DNA from: Coriobacteriia bacterium
Lineage (GTDB): Bacteria; Actinomycetota; Coriobacteriia; Coriobacteriales; UBA8131
DNA length: 64,000 nt
NCBI GenBank assembly: GCA_009783245.1
Contig: WRHL01000002.1
Location: forward strand, 1-64,000
Direction: 5' to 3'
In this document: positions 24,846 to 47,998 of the stretch, piece after piece
Position numbering within the stretch: the first letter of the stretch is position 1
How the letters are laid out: the number at the start of each line of letters is the position of its first letter
The notes under the pieces: model-generated
What the model saw: only the letters and a program-made list of their open reading frames with translations
The model's database searches: none
What the model was told of the DNA's origin: nothing
Translations under genes and position numbers: made by a program

Positions 24846-25811
24846 TCAGTCCAGAGGGAAGAGCGTGTAGGCGGTGCGGTCCTTGGAGGGGACGCGACAG
24901 ACCTCTATGTGGAAGGCCTGCTCGATGGCGCCGGAGTCGAAGACCTCCTCCACGCTGCCGGCGCAGATGCAGCGGCCTTTCTTCATGACCACCATCGCGT
25001 CGGAGTAGCGCAGGGCCAGGTCGAGGTCGTGGATGACCATGAGGATGGTCTTGCCGGAGATGCGGTTGAGCTCGGTGATCAGCTGCATGATGTCGTGGCA
25101 GGCGCGCACGTCGAGGTAGGTGGTGGGCTCGTCGAGCGCGATGATATCAGTGTCCTGGGCGAGCGTCATGGCGATGAAGGCGCGCTGCCGTTCCCCGCCG
25201 GAGAGGCGACGTACGTCGTGGTTGCGGAACTCCTCGATGCCCGCCAACAGCATCGCCTCCTCGATCTGCCGCTTGTCCTCAGCGTCAAGATGCGAGCGCA
25301 TCTGGCTGTGGTAGGGATAGCGGCCGCAGGCTACCAGCGCCTCGACGCTCATGGCGGGAGGCCGGGCGCCCTGTGCGAGCAGGGCCAGATGCCGCGCCCG
25401 CTGCCTGCCCTTCATCCCCAGGCTGGGTTTGCCGTCGATGAGCACCTCGCCACCGTGTGGCTCGATGATCCCGTCGATGAGCTTGAGCAGGGTCGACTTG
25501 CCGCAGCCGTTGGGCCCCACGATGCTGGTTATCTCGCCTCGAGCGATGTCAAGGCTCAGGCCCTCGATGAAGGGCTTCTTGGTGTAGGTATAGCTGAGGT
25601 CCTTCACGCTGATGGCCTGCGGCGATACGCCCCTGGCAGGGGTGGATGCAACAGGGCGGGCGGCGGCGGATGTGACAAAGGGGACGGTCCCTGATGTGAC
25701 AAAGGGGACGGTCCCTTTTGTCATGTCTTCTGAAGATGTGACAAAAGGGACCGTCCCCTTTGTCACATCCGCAAAACGCTCCGTCCCCTTTGTCGCATCT
25801 GTCTTACGCAT
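24846..25811 (-). CDS. FecE/FepC-type ABC transporter ATP-binding protein with repeat-encoded N-terminal extension
   Basis: GPNGCGKSTLLKLI, LSGGERQRAFIAMTLAQDTDIIALDEPTTYLD. The N-terminus MRKTDATKGTERFADVTKGTVPFVTSSEDMTKGTVPFVTSGTVPFVTS is encoded by palindromic repeats; the ATG overlaps the upstream permease stop. Confidence 0.9.
   Translation of the reverse strand: MRKTDATKGTERFADVTKGTVPFVTSSEDMTKGTVPFVTSGTVPFVTSAAARPVASTPARGVSPQAISVKDLSYTYTKKPFIEGLSLDIARGEITSIVGPNGCGKSTLLKLIDGIIEPHGGEVLIDGKPSLGMKGRQRARHLALLAQGARPPAMSVEALVACGRYPYHSQMRSHLDAEDKRQIEEAMLLAGIEEFRNHDVRRLSGGERQRAFIAMTLAQDTDIIALDEPTTYLDVRACHDIMQLITELNRISGKTILMVIHDLDLALRYSDAMVVMKKGRCICAGSVEEVFDSGAIEQAFHIEVCRVPSKDRTAYTLFPLD
25668..25800. 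repeat. Composite palindromic (REPIN-like) element inside the ATPase ORF
   Basis: Partial copy 25673-25692, full copies 25697-25723 and 25739-25765 (opposite orientation), outer GGATG/CATCC arms, half copy 25781-25800. Confidence 0.93.
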
Positions 25812-29160: not shown

Positions 29161-29345
29161 GGACAGAAGGGGACGGTTCTAAGGACAGAAGGGGACGGTT
29201 CAGGACAGAAGGGGACGGTTCTAAGGACAGAAGGGGACGGTTCTATTCTGGCCTTTTCAAGGCCAGAATAGAACCGTCCCCTTCTGTCCTTAGAACCGTC
29301 CCCTTCTGTCCTGAACCGTCCCTTTTGTCATACCCTTTGTCACGT
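29161..29345. repeat. Long inverted repeat made of tandem GGACAGAAGGGGACGGTTCT(A) units; 64-bp perfect arms around a 3-nt loop
   Basis: 29192-29255 is the exact reverse complement of 29259-29322; further units extend left to 29161 and a hybrid GAACCGTCCCTTTTGTCA...CCCTTTGTCAC lies to the right. Confidence 0.95.
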
Positions 29346-29444: not shown

Positions 29445-32120
29445 CTAACCCTGTTGCCCATCCCCGTTCTCAGTGGGATAGACCTGCTGCGACCAATGCG
29501 GAGCTGGTTGCTGAACGAACTCTGGCTGCTGTTCCCAAGGCTGAGCAGGTTGTTGGGTCGGAATGAATCCGGGTGATGTAAAGCCTCCAGGCACCTGGCC
29601 GTCAGACGGCACAAAAGCTTGCGCCGGGGCAGGCTGTGTGACGGTGAAACGCTTGACCGCAAAGTTATAGAGGGCGCTGATGCCAAAGCAGATGATGCCG
29701 CCTCCGATGAAGGCCACAACACGCATGATGGTATTCAGCGCGCCCAGGTCGAAGAGCACCAGTTTGAGCACACAGAGGATGACTATCACCAGGCCATACA
29801 GGCGCAGAGAGCGGACGCGGGACCAGAAGCCCAGAGCGATGATGAGCAGGGCTATGACCATGCTTGCGAGGCTGAGCACATAGGGCTGGTCGAACCAGTT
29901 GGTCAAGCCAGCGATGCAGCTGAGGAGCAGGCAGTGGATGGCTAGTGCGCTGAGGGCCTCGATGTCGGAGTTGGGAAGACGCATCCCCGGAGTGCGTAAA
30001 GCTGCGGTGTTTGCCTGTGCGGCCAGGCGGATACGACTGAGGATGAGAAGGAGCGCCATCGCCACTGCAATCAGGTGGAAGACTGCGGCGAGGGTGTTGG
30101 TGTAGGCCAGGTTGTTGAAGGAGAACTCTATGCTGAGGAGGAAGTAGAGGAGGTACTCGTTGATCCTGAAGAAGATCTTTGGCGTGTCTTGCCTGGTCAG
30201 ATGCAGGATGAGCAGTATGGCGATGCAGAGCAGTTCCATGAGGGCCAACGAGGAGGCGATGTCACTATTCCACAGGATGACTACCAAGGATAGCTCAAAG
30301 AACACCAGTGTGGTGAGCTTGAACGCCAGTTTGAAGTTATTGCTCTTTGTGGGGCCGAACTGCCGATAGGCAAGGTAGGAGAGGCCCAGGAGAATTGCGA
30401 GATAGATAAAGGGAAAGACCAGCGATAGGGCGGCAGAGAGCGTACCTGAGCCTGTAACCAAGCCAAACAAACCAAACTGCGAGAGGGATGTAAAGCCTGA
30501 TACCAGCTGATAGAGGGCATCGATCAGAAGCAGGATAAAGGCCACATGGCCGTATATCTGTGAGTTATTCAGCTTCCTGAGAAGCAGGCAGAAGAGTGCA
30601 GGCAGGGCAAGGAGTAGAAGGCTGGGGCCTGCCGCATGATGATAGTCGTGGAAAAGCAGGTTAATGGAAAGTACAAGGCAGGAGAATGCGAGCAGGGAGA
30701 GGTTGGTTGTGAGGTTGAGGGTTTGGCTGGAATCGCTCTTCTTACGCAAGAGCGTGTTCAGCAAGAGAACTGCAAAGATGACTATCAGAGCCGCTATGGT
30801 TCCTGCAAGAAAGGATCCGTAGCTGCTGGGGTGCGAATAGAGGAGCTCATACAGCTTGGCGGAGAGTGCCGCGATATTGGCTACCAGTGACGATCCCCAG
30901 AGCAAGAGGTTCAGCAATTGAAGGATCACCTGTGCACTGGAATTCTGAACGCGGGCAATGGACTTGAGCAGAAGGTAAGCCAAAACGCAGCTGCAGATGA
31001 ACTGCAGGATGAATCCAAGAGAGAACACTATTGTGGGTAGGAGGGAAGCCGAGCCGGGGTCTACCCAGATGAGGTTCCTCCACATGAATAGTGAGGCGTA
31101 CACGGTTATTGCCAGGGAGGCAAAGAGGCTGAACCGGTACATCTTCTTGCACCAGAGGATGCTGCCAGCTACTATGAAGACCGTTGAGACAAGCTGATAG
31201 GCTAAAAGCAGCAACAGCGTGCTCTCATTAGACAGGGCAACGGTATAGCCAAAGCAAACCGAGAGTATCATGCCAACATGAGCGATAACCCCCATGAGAA
31301 GTGACTGAGTCTGCTTCATAACGAGAAGGGCGGCGGCAAGCCAGGCCAGTAGGAGCACAAGGGCAACTATGTCGTTGAGCAGATTGAAGTACAGGTGCGT
31401 CATCTGAATGGCAATGAAGAACGCCCCGCAACCGGTGCCCAACAACGCCTTGGTGAAGTTGTTGTTGTAGCGCCTGTTCAGCAGGAAGCCGGGAACGGCC
31501 AGCACGGCGCAGAGAATGAACATAAGGGCGACCTTCATGAGGTCGTTGAGCAGAGGGACCACCAGGAAACCCAGGAAGATCAGGCCGAGAAACACCAGGA
31601 CGGAGGCGACAATACCTACGATGTTCTTGCCGAACAGGTTCTCCAGGGAGCGGCTGGGGGCCTTTGCGGGTTGAGGGGGTGCGGGATATATCGCTTGATT
31701 CGGCATTGGAGGAGGCGTGGGCGCCTGCAGGGGTTGAGGCATGGGCATTGGCTGTTGCCAAGGGATTGGAACAGGCTGATGCATGGGCATCTGCTGGGGG
31801 ATTGGCATAGGTTGCGGCATGGGCGTTGGCTGTTGCCAAGGGATTGGAACAGGCTGATGCATGGGCATCTGCTGGGGGATTGGCATAGGTTGCGGCATGG
31901 GCATCTGCTGGGGGATTGGAACAGGTTGTGGCGTCGGCACATGCTGCTGGTATGGAGGTAAAGGCACTGACAGATCCTGGGAGTTATATGGTGTTTGAGC
32001 CTGACGCTTCAGATTATTTATCTGGCGCTCCAATGAATTGAATCGCACTACGATGACAACCACTATGACAAGGATGGCAACAACACCCAAACAGAGGAAA
32101 GCTCCAAGAATAGTATCCAT
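29445..32120 (-). CDS. DUF2339-like multi-pass membrane protein
   Basis: 891 aa, many TM segments; N-terminal TM, then Pro/Met/Gln-rich linker, then SLENLFGKNIVGIVASVLVFLGLIFLG. Confidence 0.8.
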   Translation of the reverse strand: MDTILGAFLCLGVVAILVIVVVIVVRFNSLERQINNLKRQAQTPYNSQDLSVPLPPYQQHVPTPQPVPIPQQMPMPQPMPIPQQMPMHQPVPIPWQQPTPMPQPMPIPQQMPMHQPVPIPWQQPMPMPQPLQAPTPPPMPNQAIYPAPPQPAKAPSRSLENLFGKNIVGIVASVLVFLGLIFLGFLVVPLLNDLMKVALMFILCAVLAVPGFLLNRRYNNNFTKALLGTGCGAFFIAIQMTHLYFNLLNDIVALVLLLAWLAAALLVMKQTQSLLMGVIAHVGMILSVCFGYTVALSNESTLLLLLAYQLVSTVFIVAGSILWCKKMYRFSLFASLAITVYASLFMWRNLIWVDPGSASLLPTIVFSLGFILQFICSCVLAYLLLKSIARVQNSSAQVILQLLNLLLWGSSLVANIAALSAKLYELLYSHPSSYGSFLAGTIAALIVIFAVLLLNTLLRKKSDSSQTLNLTTNLSLLAFSCLVLSINLLFHDYHHAAGPSLLLLALPALFCLLLRKLNNSQIYGHVAFILLLIDALYQLVSGFTSLSQFGLFGLVTGSGTLSAALSLVFPFIYLAILLGLSYLAYRQFGPTKSNNFKLAFKLTTLVFFELSLVVILWNSDIASSLALMELLCIAILLILHLTRQDTPKIFFRINEYLLYFLLSIEFSFNNLAYTNTLAAVFHLIAVAMALLLILSRIRLAAQANTAALRTPGMRLPNSDIEALSALAIHCLLLSCIAGLTNWFDQPYVLSLASMVIALLIIALGFWSRVRSLRLYGLVIVILCVLKLVLFDLGALNTIMRVVAFIGGGIICFGISALYNFAVKRFTVTQPAPAQAFVPSDGQVPGGFTSPGFIPTQQPAQPWEQQPEFVQQPAPHWSQQVYPTENGDGQQG
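31738..31925. repeat. In-frame 78-bp tandem repeat (about 2.4 copies) encoding a P/M/Q-rich linker
   Basis: 31738-31815 and 31816-31893 nearly identical (GGCATGGGC[A/G]TTGGCTGTTGCCAAGGGATTGG...), with a partial third copy. Confidence 0.9.
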
Positions 32121-33028: not shown

Positions 33029-36000
33029 CTACCGCAGTTCCAGCAGCAGGTTGATCAACGCGCTCAGCAGTCCTACACCTGCCTGAACGGGATACATCAG
33101 GCGTTGGGATTTCACCAGATATAGCCCGCCACGCGCCTTGAGGGCAGCAGCCTGCTCAGCGGAAAGCTCCAGGGGCTCCAGCACCAGCTTGCCGCGCTGC
33201 AGGGCGACGCTGGTGATGCCCAGCTCGCCAGCCAGCGCCTTGGCGCGAGCCCGGTCGACCAGGTTCTGTGCCGGTGCAGGTAGGGCGCCGTAGCCCCCCA
33301 CCAGCGCGGCTTCTATGCCTACAACCGCGTCCTCATCGGCGGCCGCGGCCAAACGCCTATAGAACAGCACCCGCTCATCGGCGGCCGCAACGTATTCCTC
33401 GGGCAGAAGGAAGGCAACCGGCAGGTCGATGCGCACCTCGGGATAGGCCACCTCATCCCTGGCGTCTTCGGCGCCACCGGCGCGTGCCGCTAAAACGGCC
33501 TCCTGCAACATGGAGGCGAACAGATCAAAGCCTACGGCTGAGAGCATCCCGTGTTGCTCGGCACCCAAAAGCGAGCCGGCCCCACGGATCTCCAAATCGC
33601 GCATGGCTATCTTCATGCCCGAGCCCAGGCCCTGGAACTCATCTATGGCAGTCAGCCGCTCAACCGCCTCTTCTGTCAGCACATTCTGCGACGGGAACAA
33701 GAAGAACGCATAAGCCTGGGCGTGCGAGCGCCCCACGCGCCCCTTGAGCTGGTAGAGCTGTGCCAGTCCCAGACGCTGTGAGTCCTCTATGATCAGCGTG
33801 TTGGTGTGCGGGTTGTCCAGACCACTCTCGATGATGGTGGTTGCCACCAACACGTCGAACTCGTTGGCGGCGAAGTCCTCCATCACAGCCTCCAGCTGCG
33901 TGCCGCTCAGCTTGCCATGCGCTACGCCTATGCGCGCCTCCGGAGCCGTTGCCACCACCCGCGCCACTGCGTCGTCGATGCTCTTCACGCGATTGGACAC
34001 GTAATACACCTGCCCGCCCCGCTCCATCTCTCGCCGGATCGCCGCGCTGACCACGTCCTCGTCCCACTCCCCTACGTGCACGTGGATGGGCGTACGGCTT
34101 GCCGGCGGCGTGTCGATCAGCGACATGTCGCGCACTCCGCTTATGGCCATCTGCATGGTCCGCGGTATGGGCGTGGCAGAAAGCGTCAGCACGTCCACCT
34201 GCTCACGCATGCTCTTGAGGTGCTCCTTGTGCTGCACGCCAAAGCGCTGCTCCTCGTCCACCACAATCAGCCCCAGGTCCTTGGGGTTGACATCTGACGA
34301 TAAAAGCCGGTGCGTTCCCACCAACACATCCACTGTACCTGTAGCAAACCCCTCCAGTATCTTCTTCTGCTGACTGGGGGTGCGAAAACGGCTGAGCACC
34401 TCCACGTTGACGGCAAAGCGCTCAAAGCGCTCCAGAAAGGTGAGGTAGTGCTGCTGCGCCAGGATGGTGGTGGGGCAAAGCAGCATGACCTGCTTACCAC
34501 TCTGAACGGCCTTGAAGGCCGCCCGCAGTGCGACCTCGGTCTTGCCAAAGCCCACATCGCCACATATCAGGCGATCCATGGGCCGCGCTGACTCCATATC
34601 TGCTTTTACATCAGCGATGGCCGCCAGTTGATCGGCGGTCTCCTCATAGGGAAAGGCCAGTTCCATCTCATATTGCAGGTCGTTGTCTTGCGTATAGGCG
34701 TAACCCTGCGCCGTGCTGCGGCGTGCATAGAGGTCTACCAGGTCAAAGGCCAGCTTGTGAGCCGCCTTGCGCGCCTTGCCGGTGGCTCGCGACCAGTCGC
34801 TGGTGTTCAAGCGGGTCAGACGTGGTGCGGAACTCTCGGGCCCCACATAGCGCGTTATCTTGTCTATCTGCTCCACCGGCGTAAAGAGCTTGTCGCCATG
34901 GGCGTATTCCAGGTAGAGGTAGTCTCGCTCGATGCCGGCGACCTCCTGCCTGACAATCTCCTTGAAAAGCGCGATGCCGTGGGTGGCGTGCACCACATAG
35001 TCCCCCGGCTTGTAGGGGAAGGTCAGCGACGTGGGGTCTACCGCCCGGCGCGAGCGCCCTCTGCGCGAGACCGCCTGCGAACCGCTGCCCTCGCTCAGGG
35101 AGAGCAGGCCGATCTGCGCTGCTGGGATGATGAGCGAGGTCGCAAAATCCATGTCGACGATGTTCAGCACCGTCCTGCTCAGCTCACCTGCGCCCTGCAT
35201 CCAGCCCTGCGCCTCGCCCTTCACCTCGCCCATCACCTCGCCCTTGCCCTCAGCCCTACTGTCGCCCTTGCCCTGCGTCTGGAACTCTGCAAAGGGAAGA
35301 TGGGCATCGCTTAAGACCAGCTCAGCCCCTGCGCGTGCGCGACGGTCCGCTATGCCCAGCACCGGAAGGAACCTTGAGGCCAGAAGCGAGCGAACGCTTG
35401 CTGCTAGCCGCTCGTCTGAGGAGGTATCGGCGTGCTTGACCTCCAGCCGGGCATCAAGGTTGGCGCCCCCGCTGATCAGCGAGAGCAGGGTCAGCCGCTG
35501 CTGGGTCCCAAAGTCCAGCTGGGCGGGATGCATATACAGGTCCTCCAGCGGGGCTCGCGCCAGCTTGGCTGATGCCTCCAGCTCCTCAAAGTAGCGCAGG
35601 CTGTCGTCTATAAGCGAGCGAGGTTCGATAAGCGCGACCATGGCCGAGTCATGCAGATAAGCCAGAGGCGTTACGCAATCCGTATAGAGGTAGGGCAGGT
35701 AGCGATCCAGCTCGTTGAAGAAGACACCCTGCCCGATCTGCTCCGCGTGTTGCAGCACCTGCGCTGGTAGCTTGGCAGCCGCAGCGCCGGTTAAAAGCGG
35801 TATCTCTCTCAGCGCCCGCGCCCTGGTCTTCTTATTGAGAGCCAACTCTCGCGCCGGGTAGATGTCCACGCTATCCAACATGCCGATGGACTGGCCGGTA
35901 GCAGGGACCAGCCGCCTGATGACCTCCACAAACTCGCCAAAGAGCTCCACACGCACGGGATAGGAGTGCCCGGCGGGATAGATATCCAGCGTGTCGCCGT

Positions 36001-36655
36001 GCAGAGCAAAACTACCCGGCTGCTCGGCGCGGTCCAGTTTATCCAGGCGCTCATAACCCCTGCTTACGAGAAGGGCGCTTAACCCATCGTAGCTAGCCTC
36101 GGCGGAGAGCTCCTCTCCCGCCACAAAGCACAACGGCGCAAAGACACTTGTGGATGTGACAAAGGGGACGGTCCCTTTTGTCACATCTTCAGACTTGACA
36201 AAAGGGACCGTCCCCTTTGTCACATCCGTCCCCCTTGTCACAGGGGGTGGCACCAGCCGCAGCAATGAGCGAGCGCTGGCAACAACCACGCCCGGCTCGC
36301 CTTCTGCCAGCGACTGGATGGCCCGAGCCCGTTGCCCAACCTGCTGCACGTGCTTGAACTCCCTAGGCAGATCTCTCCAGGGCAGATCGGTGCGCAAAGG
36401 CAGCTGCATCACTGCATCATTGCCTAACCAGACGGCAAGGTCCCGCGCGAACAGATAGGCCGCCTCCTCACCAGAGACCACCACCAGTATCGGTCGCGGG
36501 TCTTTAGCATAGGTGGCTGCCAACAGGAAAGGCCGTGCAGACAAGGGCACGCCTATGACCACGTCTCGCCCCGTCTCAAGCTTTGCCGCCAGCGTATCCA
36601 GCGCCTTGCATGCAAAAAGCGCCTCGGCAAGCCTCTGAATCAACATCTGCGACAA
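33029..36655 (-). CDS. mfd: Transcription-repair coupling factor
   Basis: 1208 aa; RLICGDVGFGKTEVALRAAFKAVQSGKQVMLLCPTTILAQQHYLTF, VDEEQRFGVQHKEHLK, LSATPIPRTMQMAISGVRDMSLIDTPP, QLYQLKGRVGRS. Confidence 0.96.
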   Translation of the reverse strand: MSQMLIQRLAEALFACKALDTLAAKLETGRDVVIGVPLSARPFLLAATYAKDPRPILVVVSGEEAAYLFARDLAVWLGNDAVMQLPLRTDLPWRDLPREFKHVQQVGQRARAIQSLAEGEPGVVVASARSLLRLVPPPVTRGTDVTKGTVPFVKSEDVTKGTVPFVTSTSVFAPLCFVAGEELSAEASYDGLSALLVSRGYERLDKLDRAEQPGSFALHGDTLDIYPAGHSYPVRVELFGEFVEVIRRLVPATGQSIGMLDSVDIYPARELALNKKTRARALREIPLLTGAAAAKLPAQVLQHAEQIGQGVFFNELDRYLPYLYTDCVTPLAYLHDSAMVALIEPRSLIDDSLRYFEELEASAKLARAPLEDLYMHPAQLDFGTQQRLTLLSLISGGANLDARLEVKHADTSSDERLAASVRSLLASRFLPVLGIADRRARAGAELVLSDAHLPFAEFQTQGKGDSRAEGKGEVMGEVKGEAQGWMQGAGELSRTVLNIVDMDFATSLIIPAAQIGLLSLSEGSGSQAVSRRGRSRRAVDPTSLTFPYKPGDYVVHATHGIALFKEIVRQEVAGIERDYLYLEYAHGDKLFTPVEQIDKITRYVGPESSAPRLTRLNTSDWSRATGKARKAAHKLAFDLVDLYARRSTAQGYAYTQDNDLQYEMELAFPYEETADQLAAIADVKADMESARPMDRLICGDVGFGKTEVALRAAFKAVQSGKQVMLLCPTTILAQQHYLTFLERFERFAVNVEVLSRFRTPSQQKKILEGFATGTVDVLVGTHRLLSSDVNPKDLGLIVVDEEQRFGVQHKEHLKSMREQVDVLTLSATPIPRTMQMAISGVRDMSLIDTPPASRTPIHVHVGEWDEDVVSAAIRREMERGGQVYYVSNRVKSIDDAVARVVATAPEARIGVAHGKLSGTQLEAVMEDFAANEFDVLVATTIIESGLDNPHTNTLIIEDSQRLGLAQLYQLKGRVGRSHAQAYAFFLFPSQNVLTEEAVERLTAIDEFQGLGSGMKIAMRDLEIRGAGSLLGAEQHGMLSAVGFDLFASMLQEAVLAARAGGAEDARDEVAYPEVRIDLPVAFLLPEEYVAAADERVLFYRRLAAAADEDAVVGIEAALVGGYGALPAPAQNLVDRARAKALAGELGITSVALQRGKLVLEPLELSAEQAAALKARGGLYLVKSQRLMYPVQAGVGLLSALINLLLELR
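36152..36227. repeat. REPIN-like palindromic element inside mfd (two inverted 27-bp copies, 12-bp spacer, GGATG/CATCC ends)
   Basis: Copies 36157-36183 and 36196-36222 in opposite orientation; encodes DVTKGTVPFVKSEDVTKGTVPFVTS in Mfd. Confidence 0.95.
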
Positions 36656-36724: not shown

Positions 36725-36904
36725 ATTGTAGCATGACAAAGGGGACGGTCTGACAAAAGGGGTCTGACAAAGGGGACGGTCCCTTTTGTCATGGACAGAA
36801 CCTTCAACCATGCTGAGGCTGCTACAATGTGACAAAAGGGACCGTCCCCTTTGTCAGACCGTCCCCTTTGTCAGACCCCTTTTGTCAGACCGTCCCCTTT
36901 GTCA
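36725..36904. repeat. Large imperfect inverted repeat of palindromic units between divergent mfd and nth
   Basis: Left arm 36734-36791 is the reverse complement of 36830-36904 except for one extra 17-bp GACCGTCCCCTTTGTCA unit on the right. Confidence 0.95.
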
Positions 36905-36926
36905 TCCCGGTTATGAGGAGCTCCCC

Positions 36927-47891: not shown

Positions 47892-47998
47892 AGACGGTGT
47901 CAGTAGAGTGTGTCATGGGGTCGTATCTGTTGACACATTCTCCGTCGGAGAATGTGTCAACAGATACGACCCCATGACACACTCTACTGACACCGTCT
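47892..47998. repeat. 107-bp perfect palindrome (53-bp arms, 1-nt centre) between convergent genes
   Basis: AGACGGTGTCAGTAGAGTGTGTCATGGGGTCGTATCTGTTGACACATTCTCCG-T-CGGAGAATGTGTCAACAGATACGACCCCATGACACACTCTACTGACACCGTCT. Confidence 0.97.

Follow-up and report, generated by a model that had tools for sequence, protein, structure and literature searches.

A layered perfect hairpin in a Coriobacteriia genome, interpreted as a REPIN-like element of the TIRtron type

The hairpin and its layers

The stretch of Coriobacteriia DNA considered here (64,000 nt, hereafter the window) comes from contig C2 of a MAG of 1.99 Mb, distributed over 117 contigs and 79.7% complete. As originally predicted, it carries a long perfect hairpin between a DUF2339 gene (29445-32120, minus strand), whose protein has its nearest named matches in Coriobacteriia MAGs, and a radical SAM/SPASM gene (27915 to about 28916, minus strand), the hairpin lying about 120 nt downstream of the former and upstream of the latter. 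Direct reading of the sequence and a repeat search agree that 29192-29255 is the exact reverse complement of 29259-29322, with TTC as the loop between these two arms (64 bp per arm, 131 nt in total), and the search extends them to 29189-29325 if one mismatch is allowed. In an independent scan that covered about 60% of the genome, taken as stretches (1.196 Mb), it exceeds in length every other perfect palindrome (loops of up to 12 nt); the census recovered 72 perfect palindromes with arms of at least 14 bp, against none in a Markov-generated control. The predicted single-stranded DNA fold of the hairpin (-95.4 kcal/mol, shuffle mean -26.6, z = -20.5) is far beyond chance.

The tandem units, at first estimated at about 25 bp, have actual periods of 22 and 20 nt. 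Repeats do occur in each arm, as four 19-mers on the left (starting at 29161, 29183, 29203 and 29225) and two on the right (29271, 29293) followed by a hybrid unit (29313-29330), in which GAACCGTCCC is joined to TTTTGTCA as the first description had it. Additional material is indeed confined to the left side, and its nature is that of a 42-nt tandem duplication, because 29161-29201 exactly copies 29203-29243. From the centre outward, the structure consists of a core, of TAA/TTA plus a half-REP on both sides, of A/T plus a half-REP (GGACAGAAGGGGACGGTTC on the left, the hybrid GAACCGTCCCTTTTGTCA on the right), and of one unmatched left unit (Table 1). The hybrid half-REP is probably the remnant of an older TGACAAAAGGGACGGTTC element, a reading suggested by another locus of the genome (L119), where the core is flanked symmetrically by (TGA)CAAAAGGGACGGTTC.

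Table 1. Parts and layers of the hairpin, in window coordinates.
Feature	Position	Strand	Remarks
Core element, family F1, 65-nt palindrome	29225-29289		GGACAGAAGGGGACGGTTC - TATTCTGGCCTT - TTC - AAGGCCAGAATA - GAACCGTCCCCTTCTGTCC; 24 copies genome-wide
Left REP unit of core	29223-29255	+	stem AAGGACAGAA ... TTCTGGCCTT, apex GGGGACGGTTC; consensus unit folds as stem-loop
Loop TTC, 3 nt	29256-29258		reads GAA in oppositely oriented copies
Right REP unit of core	29259-29291	-	left unit reverse-complemented
Second layer, left: half-REP GGACAGAAGGGGACGGTTC + TAA	29203-29224	+	exact partner at 29290-29311
Second layer, right: TTA + GAACCGTCCCCTTCTGTCC	29290-29311	-	exact partner of 29203-29224
Third layer, left: half-REP + A	29183-29202	+	inner part GGGACGGTTCA pairs with right hybrid unit
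Third layer, right: T + hybrid half-REP GAACCGTCCCTTTTGTCA	29312-29330	-	outer unit symmetric around core in L119/L015
Unpaired left half-REP + TAA	29161-29182	+	with 29183-29202, the 42-nt duplicate; direct repeat D1, 100% over 41 nt
Older GACAAAGGG-type repeat fragment (TACCCTTTGTCAC)	29331-29343	-	right flank only

Dispersed families and flanked transposase genes

The 19-mer GGACAGAAGGGGACGGTTC has 68 matches genome-wide (34+34, up to 2 mismatches) compared with 1 for its reversed control, and a broader motif, ACARARGGGACGGTYC, has 517 compared with 13. Most GGACAGAAGGGGACGGTTC copies are found in inverted pairs, at a constant spacing of 46 nt, around one 65-nt palindrome that is the core of the target hairpin, and whose 24 genomic copies share the plan GGACAGAAGGGGACGGTTC-TATTYTGKCCTT-[TTC or GAA]-reverse complement. 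At least eight families of like build appear in the palindrome list of this genome (labelled F1 to F8 by us); the exact 19-mer is absent from the viral contigs searched. Two arms are joined head to head, and each of them is a small stem-loop that has GGGG[AT]CG(G) close to the apex and a stem that varies by family. The consensus F1 unit folds as a stem-loop, like comparable units from other families and from other genera, with the exception of the F6 unit, which folds differently. In a test on 18 units, 106 of 108 positions are paired between the 5' and 3' ends of the same unit (mean of 41 when ends are swapped), a value biased upwards because the limits of the units, at the foot of the stem, were chosen by eye.

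One Y1_Tnp (RAYT-like) gene was detected in the genome, on contig C32 (PF01797, E=2.4e-9); against NF047646 REP_Tyr_transpos it reaches 51.7 bits, under the cut-off of 80. On either side of this gene stands one copy of GTGGACAGGGGTACGTATAATTCGTCCATCTA, the two being inverted relative to each other (one mismatch); this unit belongs to the sister family F4, and its inner 25-mer recurs elsewhere in the genome as perfect head-to-head palindromes. In the 79.7%-complete, 117-contig assembly, no transposase flanked by the exact F1 unit was found. The HUH Y1 transposase gene with inverted flanks at L011/L032 encodes a protein with ENHVH and CYIHNNP motifs. For a C-terminal HTH domain, as expected of subclass 2.1, the search returned a weak HTH_IclR match only (E=0.062), and the transposase was matched by sequence to none of the solved structures. 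Many such genes of relatives also have inverted repeats on both sides, built to the same plan as those on C32: in a sister genus, the flanks of one transposase gene (L192, genome G010) are GGACAGAGGGACGGTTCATCTGTCC, near-identical to the F1 REP, and those of another sister-genus gene (L193) are TGACAAAGGGGACGGTTCCATTTTGTCA, with many cognate palindromes in the same genome. The cognate palindromes observed in genome G027 (L196-L206) have conserved arms and a variable spacer of some tens of nt, and some of them have further symmetric flanks (GAGGTGGCCTGCGGAG).

Copies of the families are found within reading frames as well as between genes, whatever the orientation of these genes, a distribution which suggests that they follow no placement rule. 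It speaks against a functional RNA or DNA structure between the DUF2339 and radical SAM genes (a terminator, an mRNA stabiliser or a protein-binding site), a very unlikely explanation that draws on the position between two co-directional genes, on the high predicted stability of the RNA hairpin (-157 kcal/mol), and on such roles having been hypothesised for REPs (PMC3733652). The transcription termination that had been raised as a possibility, and a terminator/promoter reading more generally, are unsupported, as the terminator scan shows no T-tracted stem at the hairpin that a canonical terminator would have. Rfam matches all fall below the gathering score and are all to miRNA models, which are attracted by any perfect hairpin and were rejected. 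Any effect on the neighbouring genes is probably incidental.

Nesting, arm copying and the origin of the hairpin

We favour, with a probability of about 0.78, the reading of the hairpin as a non-autonomous REPIN-like mobile element, moved by a Y1/HUH transposase and nested in an older REP palindrome. Its unit would be a REP stem-loop with a variable stem and the signature GGGGACGG near the apex, two facing units giving the 65-nt palindrome observed at the locus. A Y1/HUH single-strand transposase of RAYT/TIRYT type would most likely have moved the element by recognition of its folded single strand at replication, and the anatomy suggests that an older REP palindrome was entered at its centre, or had its centre replaced, by the element; the old half-REPs would then have become the outer layers of the arms. 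Later slippage would account for the 42 nt present on the left, and arm co-variation suggests that one arm has served as the template for the other, which would keep the two identical or make them so, for example through a template switch within the hairpin at the replication fork.

Nesting is observed at several other loci. In the genome studied here, an F1 core is nested in a GGACAGGGGGACGGTTC palindrome, in frame at the junction of EcfA1 and EcfA2 (L131:2137-3999, minus strand, contig C16). The two genes are separate and abutting in several relatives (e.g., L170), and relatives with a fused EcfA1/EcfA2 protein have a linker unrelated to the L131 insert. L131 and L170 can thus be read, from their sequences, as an empty-site comparison for the family rather than for the target locus, where the DUF2339 gene of relatives is only about 40% identical, so that a usable empty site was not obtained. 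At L145, L119, L155 and window positions 36730-36905, the core of one family lies within the half-REPs of another, symmetrically on both arms, and the core of one family is likewise nested in the half-REPs of another at L041, in another genus. L127 is a further layered case, L145 combines two different families, and the junction between layers usually comes after GGG[G]WCGG(TTC).

At L131, two ECF-type ATPase genes are read as one frame through the nested REPIN-like insert, and in-frame palindromic inserts are present in a TsaD/GNAT fusion gene (L145:5095-7647, plus strand) and in a DUF512 radical SAM gene (L127:4638-6029, minus strand). In the window, the gene of the transcription-repair coupling factor Mfd (33029-36655, minus strand) contains an in-frame REPIN-like insert (36152-36227) read as TKGTVPFV repeats, and an ABC transporter ATPase (24846-25811, minus strand) has N-terminal in-frame TKGTVPFVTS repeats near 25675-25763, which belong to the same repeat superfamily. 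The palindrome at 36730-36905, of GACAAAGGGGACGG type, is layered as at the target, with about 40 nt in its loop and an additional layer that is found only on the right. A second long perfect palindrome, at 47892-47998 (family GTGTCATGGGGTCGTATCTGTTGACACATT, 53-bp arms, 1-nt loop), has extra symmetric outer sequence.

Across the 24 cores, the two arms of a same copy differ at 7 of 288 positions, while exchanging arms between copies gives a mean of 31.6 differences and a minimum of 19 in 10,000 shuffles, imperfect arms being found in six of the 24. The arms therefore co-vary between copies and have not evolved independently. It is likely, as judged from the sequences, that they are homogenised in place; symmetric variants spread by transposition alone could also be a source of this co-variation, and the six unequal-arm copies may be intermediates between sub-families. 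The original prediction, drawn from a single locus, was of recent formation or of active copying or gene conversion. Its copying or homogenisation component gains support from arm co-variation in the 24 cores, short of proof, as symmetric sub-families spread by transposition fit the same signal, whereas the identity of the element was missed, with its dispersed REPIN-like family, the sister families and the flanked transposases.

Could the hairpin have grown where it stands? Replication errors (template switching and slippage within the hairpin) would then have extended and perfected a short ancestral palindrome in place, with transposition unneeded at the locus. Arm co-variation across the cores fits this scenario, as do the left-only 42-nt tandem duplication and the half-REP layers with matched junctions on both sides (TAA/TTA, A/T), here and at 36730-36905, and template switching has been proposed both to create and to maintain perfect hairpins (PMC8794818). 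It nevertheless leaves unexplained why a single 65-nt core is scattered over the genome in dozens of copies, the outer layers that come from other families (L145, L119), and the insertion between genes that abut in relatives, and we regard it as unlikely to be the origin of the hairpin, while it may explain the perfection of the arms and the growth of layers after insertion. An inverted duplication built by the assembler from repeat reads is the least likely origin, given that the target copy is internal to a 75-kb contig, that many differing copies survive, six of 24 with imperfect arms, and that independently assembled genomes of other genera have the same architecture, even if the assembler does struggle with F1, in copies of which about 13 of the contig ends fall by our own count.

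Relation to known repeat systems

The preferred reading, a mobile REPIN-like element, places the hairpin in a known kind of element, present here in an unusually dense and layered version. It is REPIN-like, of the little-studied TIRtron/TIRYT type, and not a classical GTAG REPIN; as both groups are defined it is a member of neither, since it lacks the GT[AG]G foot and departs from a strict GGGGWSAS. As in the REPIN/RAYT system, an inverted REP pair forms a long hairpin, with many dispersed copies, compensatory changes between the two sides, and tandem clusters (PMC3116915); the target itself has two inverted REP units in one hairpin and a high dispersed copy number. In classical REPINs, tandem clusters, compensatory changes and insertion of a REPIN into a REPIN have already been described (Bertels and Rainey 2011, PMC3116915). 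In contrast with REPINs, the elements described here are without the GTAG-type conserved end (neither GTAG nor GTGG is read at the foot of the REP stem), their conserved part lies near the apex of the stem-loop, and they have near-perfect arms, a 3-nt loop, and half-REP layers that lengthen the arms.

The likeness to TIRtrons is that of a Y1 tyrosine transposase gene with flanking inverted repeats, of a GGGG[AT] motif, and of dispersed copies occurring as dimers and clusters (PMC3733652). The inverted repeats that flank TIRYT genes contain GGGGWSAS (PMC3733652), compared with GGGG[AT]CG here, and seven of eight positions fit: F1 GGGGACGG departs at position 7, and GGGGACAG, found in relatives (L075, L092), fits the motif. 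Copies are counted here in hundreds, in contrast with the "moderately abundant" TIRtron families (Di Nocera et al. 2013, PMC3733652). TIRYT genes probably correspond to subclass 2.1 in the scheme of Quentin et al. 2018, the counterpart of RAYT group 1 (PMC6006769); no REP-like sequences were reported near subclass 2.1 genes (Quentin et al. 2018, PMC6006769), unlike the stem-loop units seen here. CGTC-tagged REPs are also short palindromic repeats, with CGTC on one strand and in-frame copies within genes (PMC3733652), but their tag is unpaired at the stem foot, while the CGTC of the present units is part of the apex region when they are folded, and a sister family here has a transposase with matching flanks. 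Classical bacterial MITEs are similarly short and non-coding with terminal inverted repeats; here just 3 nt separate the repeats, and the flanking sequence ties them to an HUH Y1 enzyme, not to a classical IS transposase. The repeat signature has so far been tied only loosely to REPIN-like elements, and our literature search found no paper on REPINs in Coriobacteriia.

These families would connect two known systems, with TIRYT-type flanks forming abundant REPIN-like populations. Where TIRYT or subclass 2.1 genes have been reported without a REP-like partner (PMC6006769) or with repeats of moderate abundance (PMC3733652), the present genome and the sister genera seem to point the other way, as several REPIN-like families with hundreds of copies are tied by sequence to the flanks of TIRYT-type genes. 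We tentatively propose that TIRYT-type (RAYT group 1-like) transposases of Coriobacteriia might drive REPIN-like populations built on apex-tagged REPs, in which the stem varies and the GGGGWCG tip is constant. Time and again a new copy would take the place of the centre of an old one, and the layered palindromes so built would grow and, like tree rings, keep a record of one invasion after another. Recognition by the enzyme of an apex motif rather than of a foot tetranucleotide becomes directly testable, and the layered palindromes are a natural archive in which the origin and the persistence of long perfect inverted repeats in bacteria can be followed.
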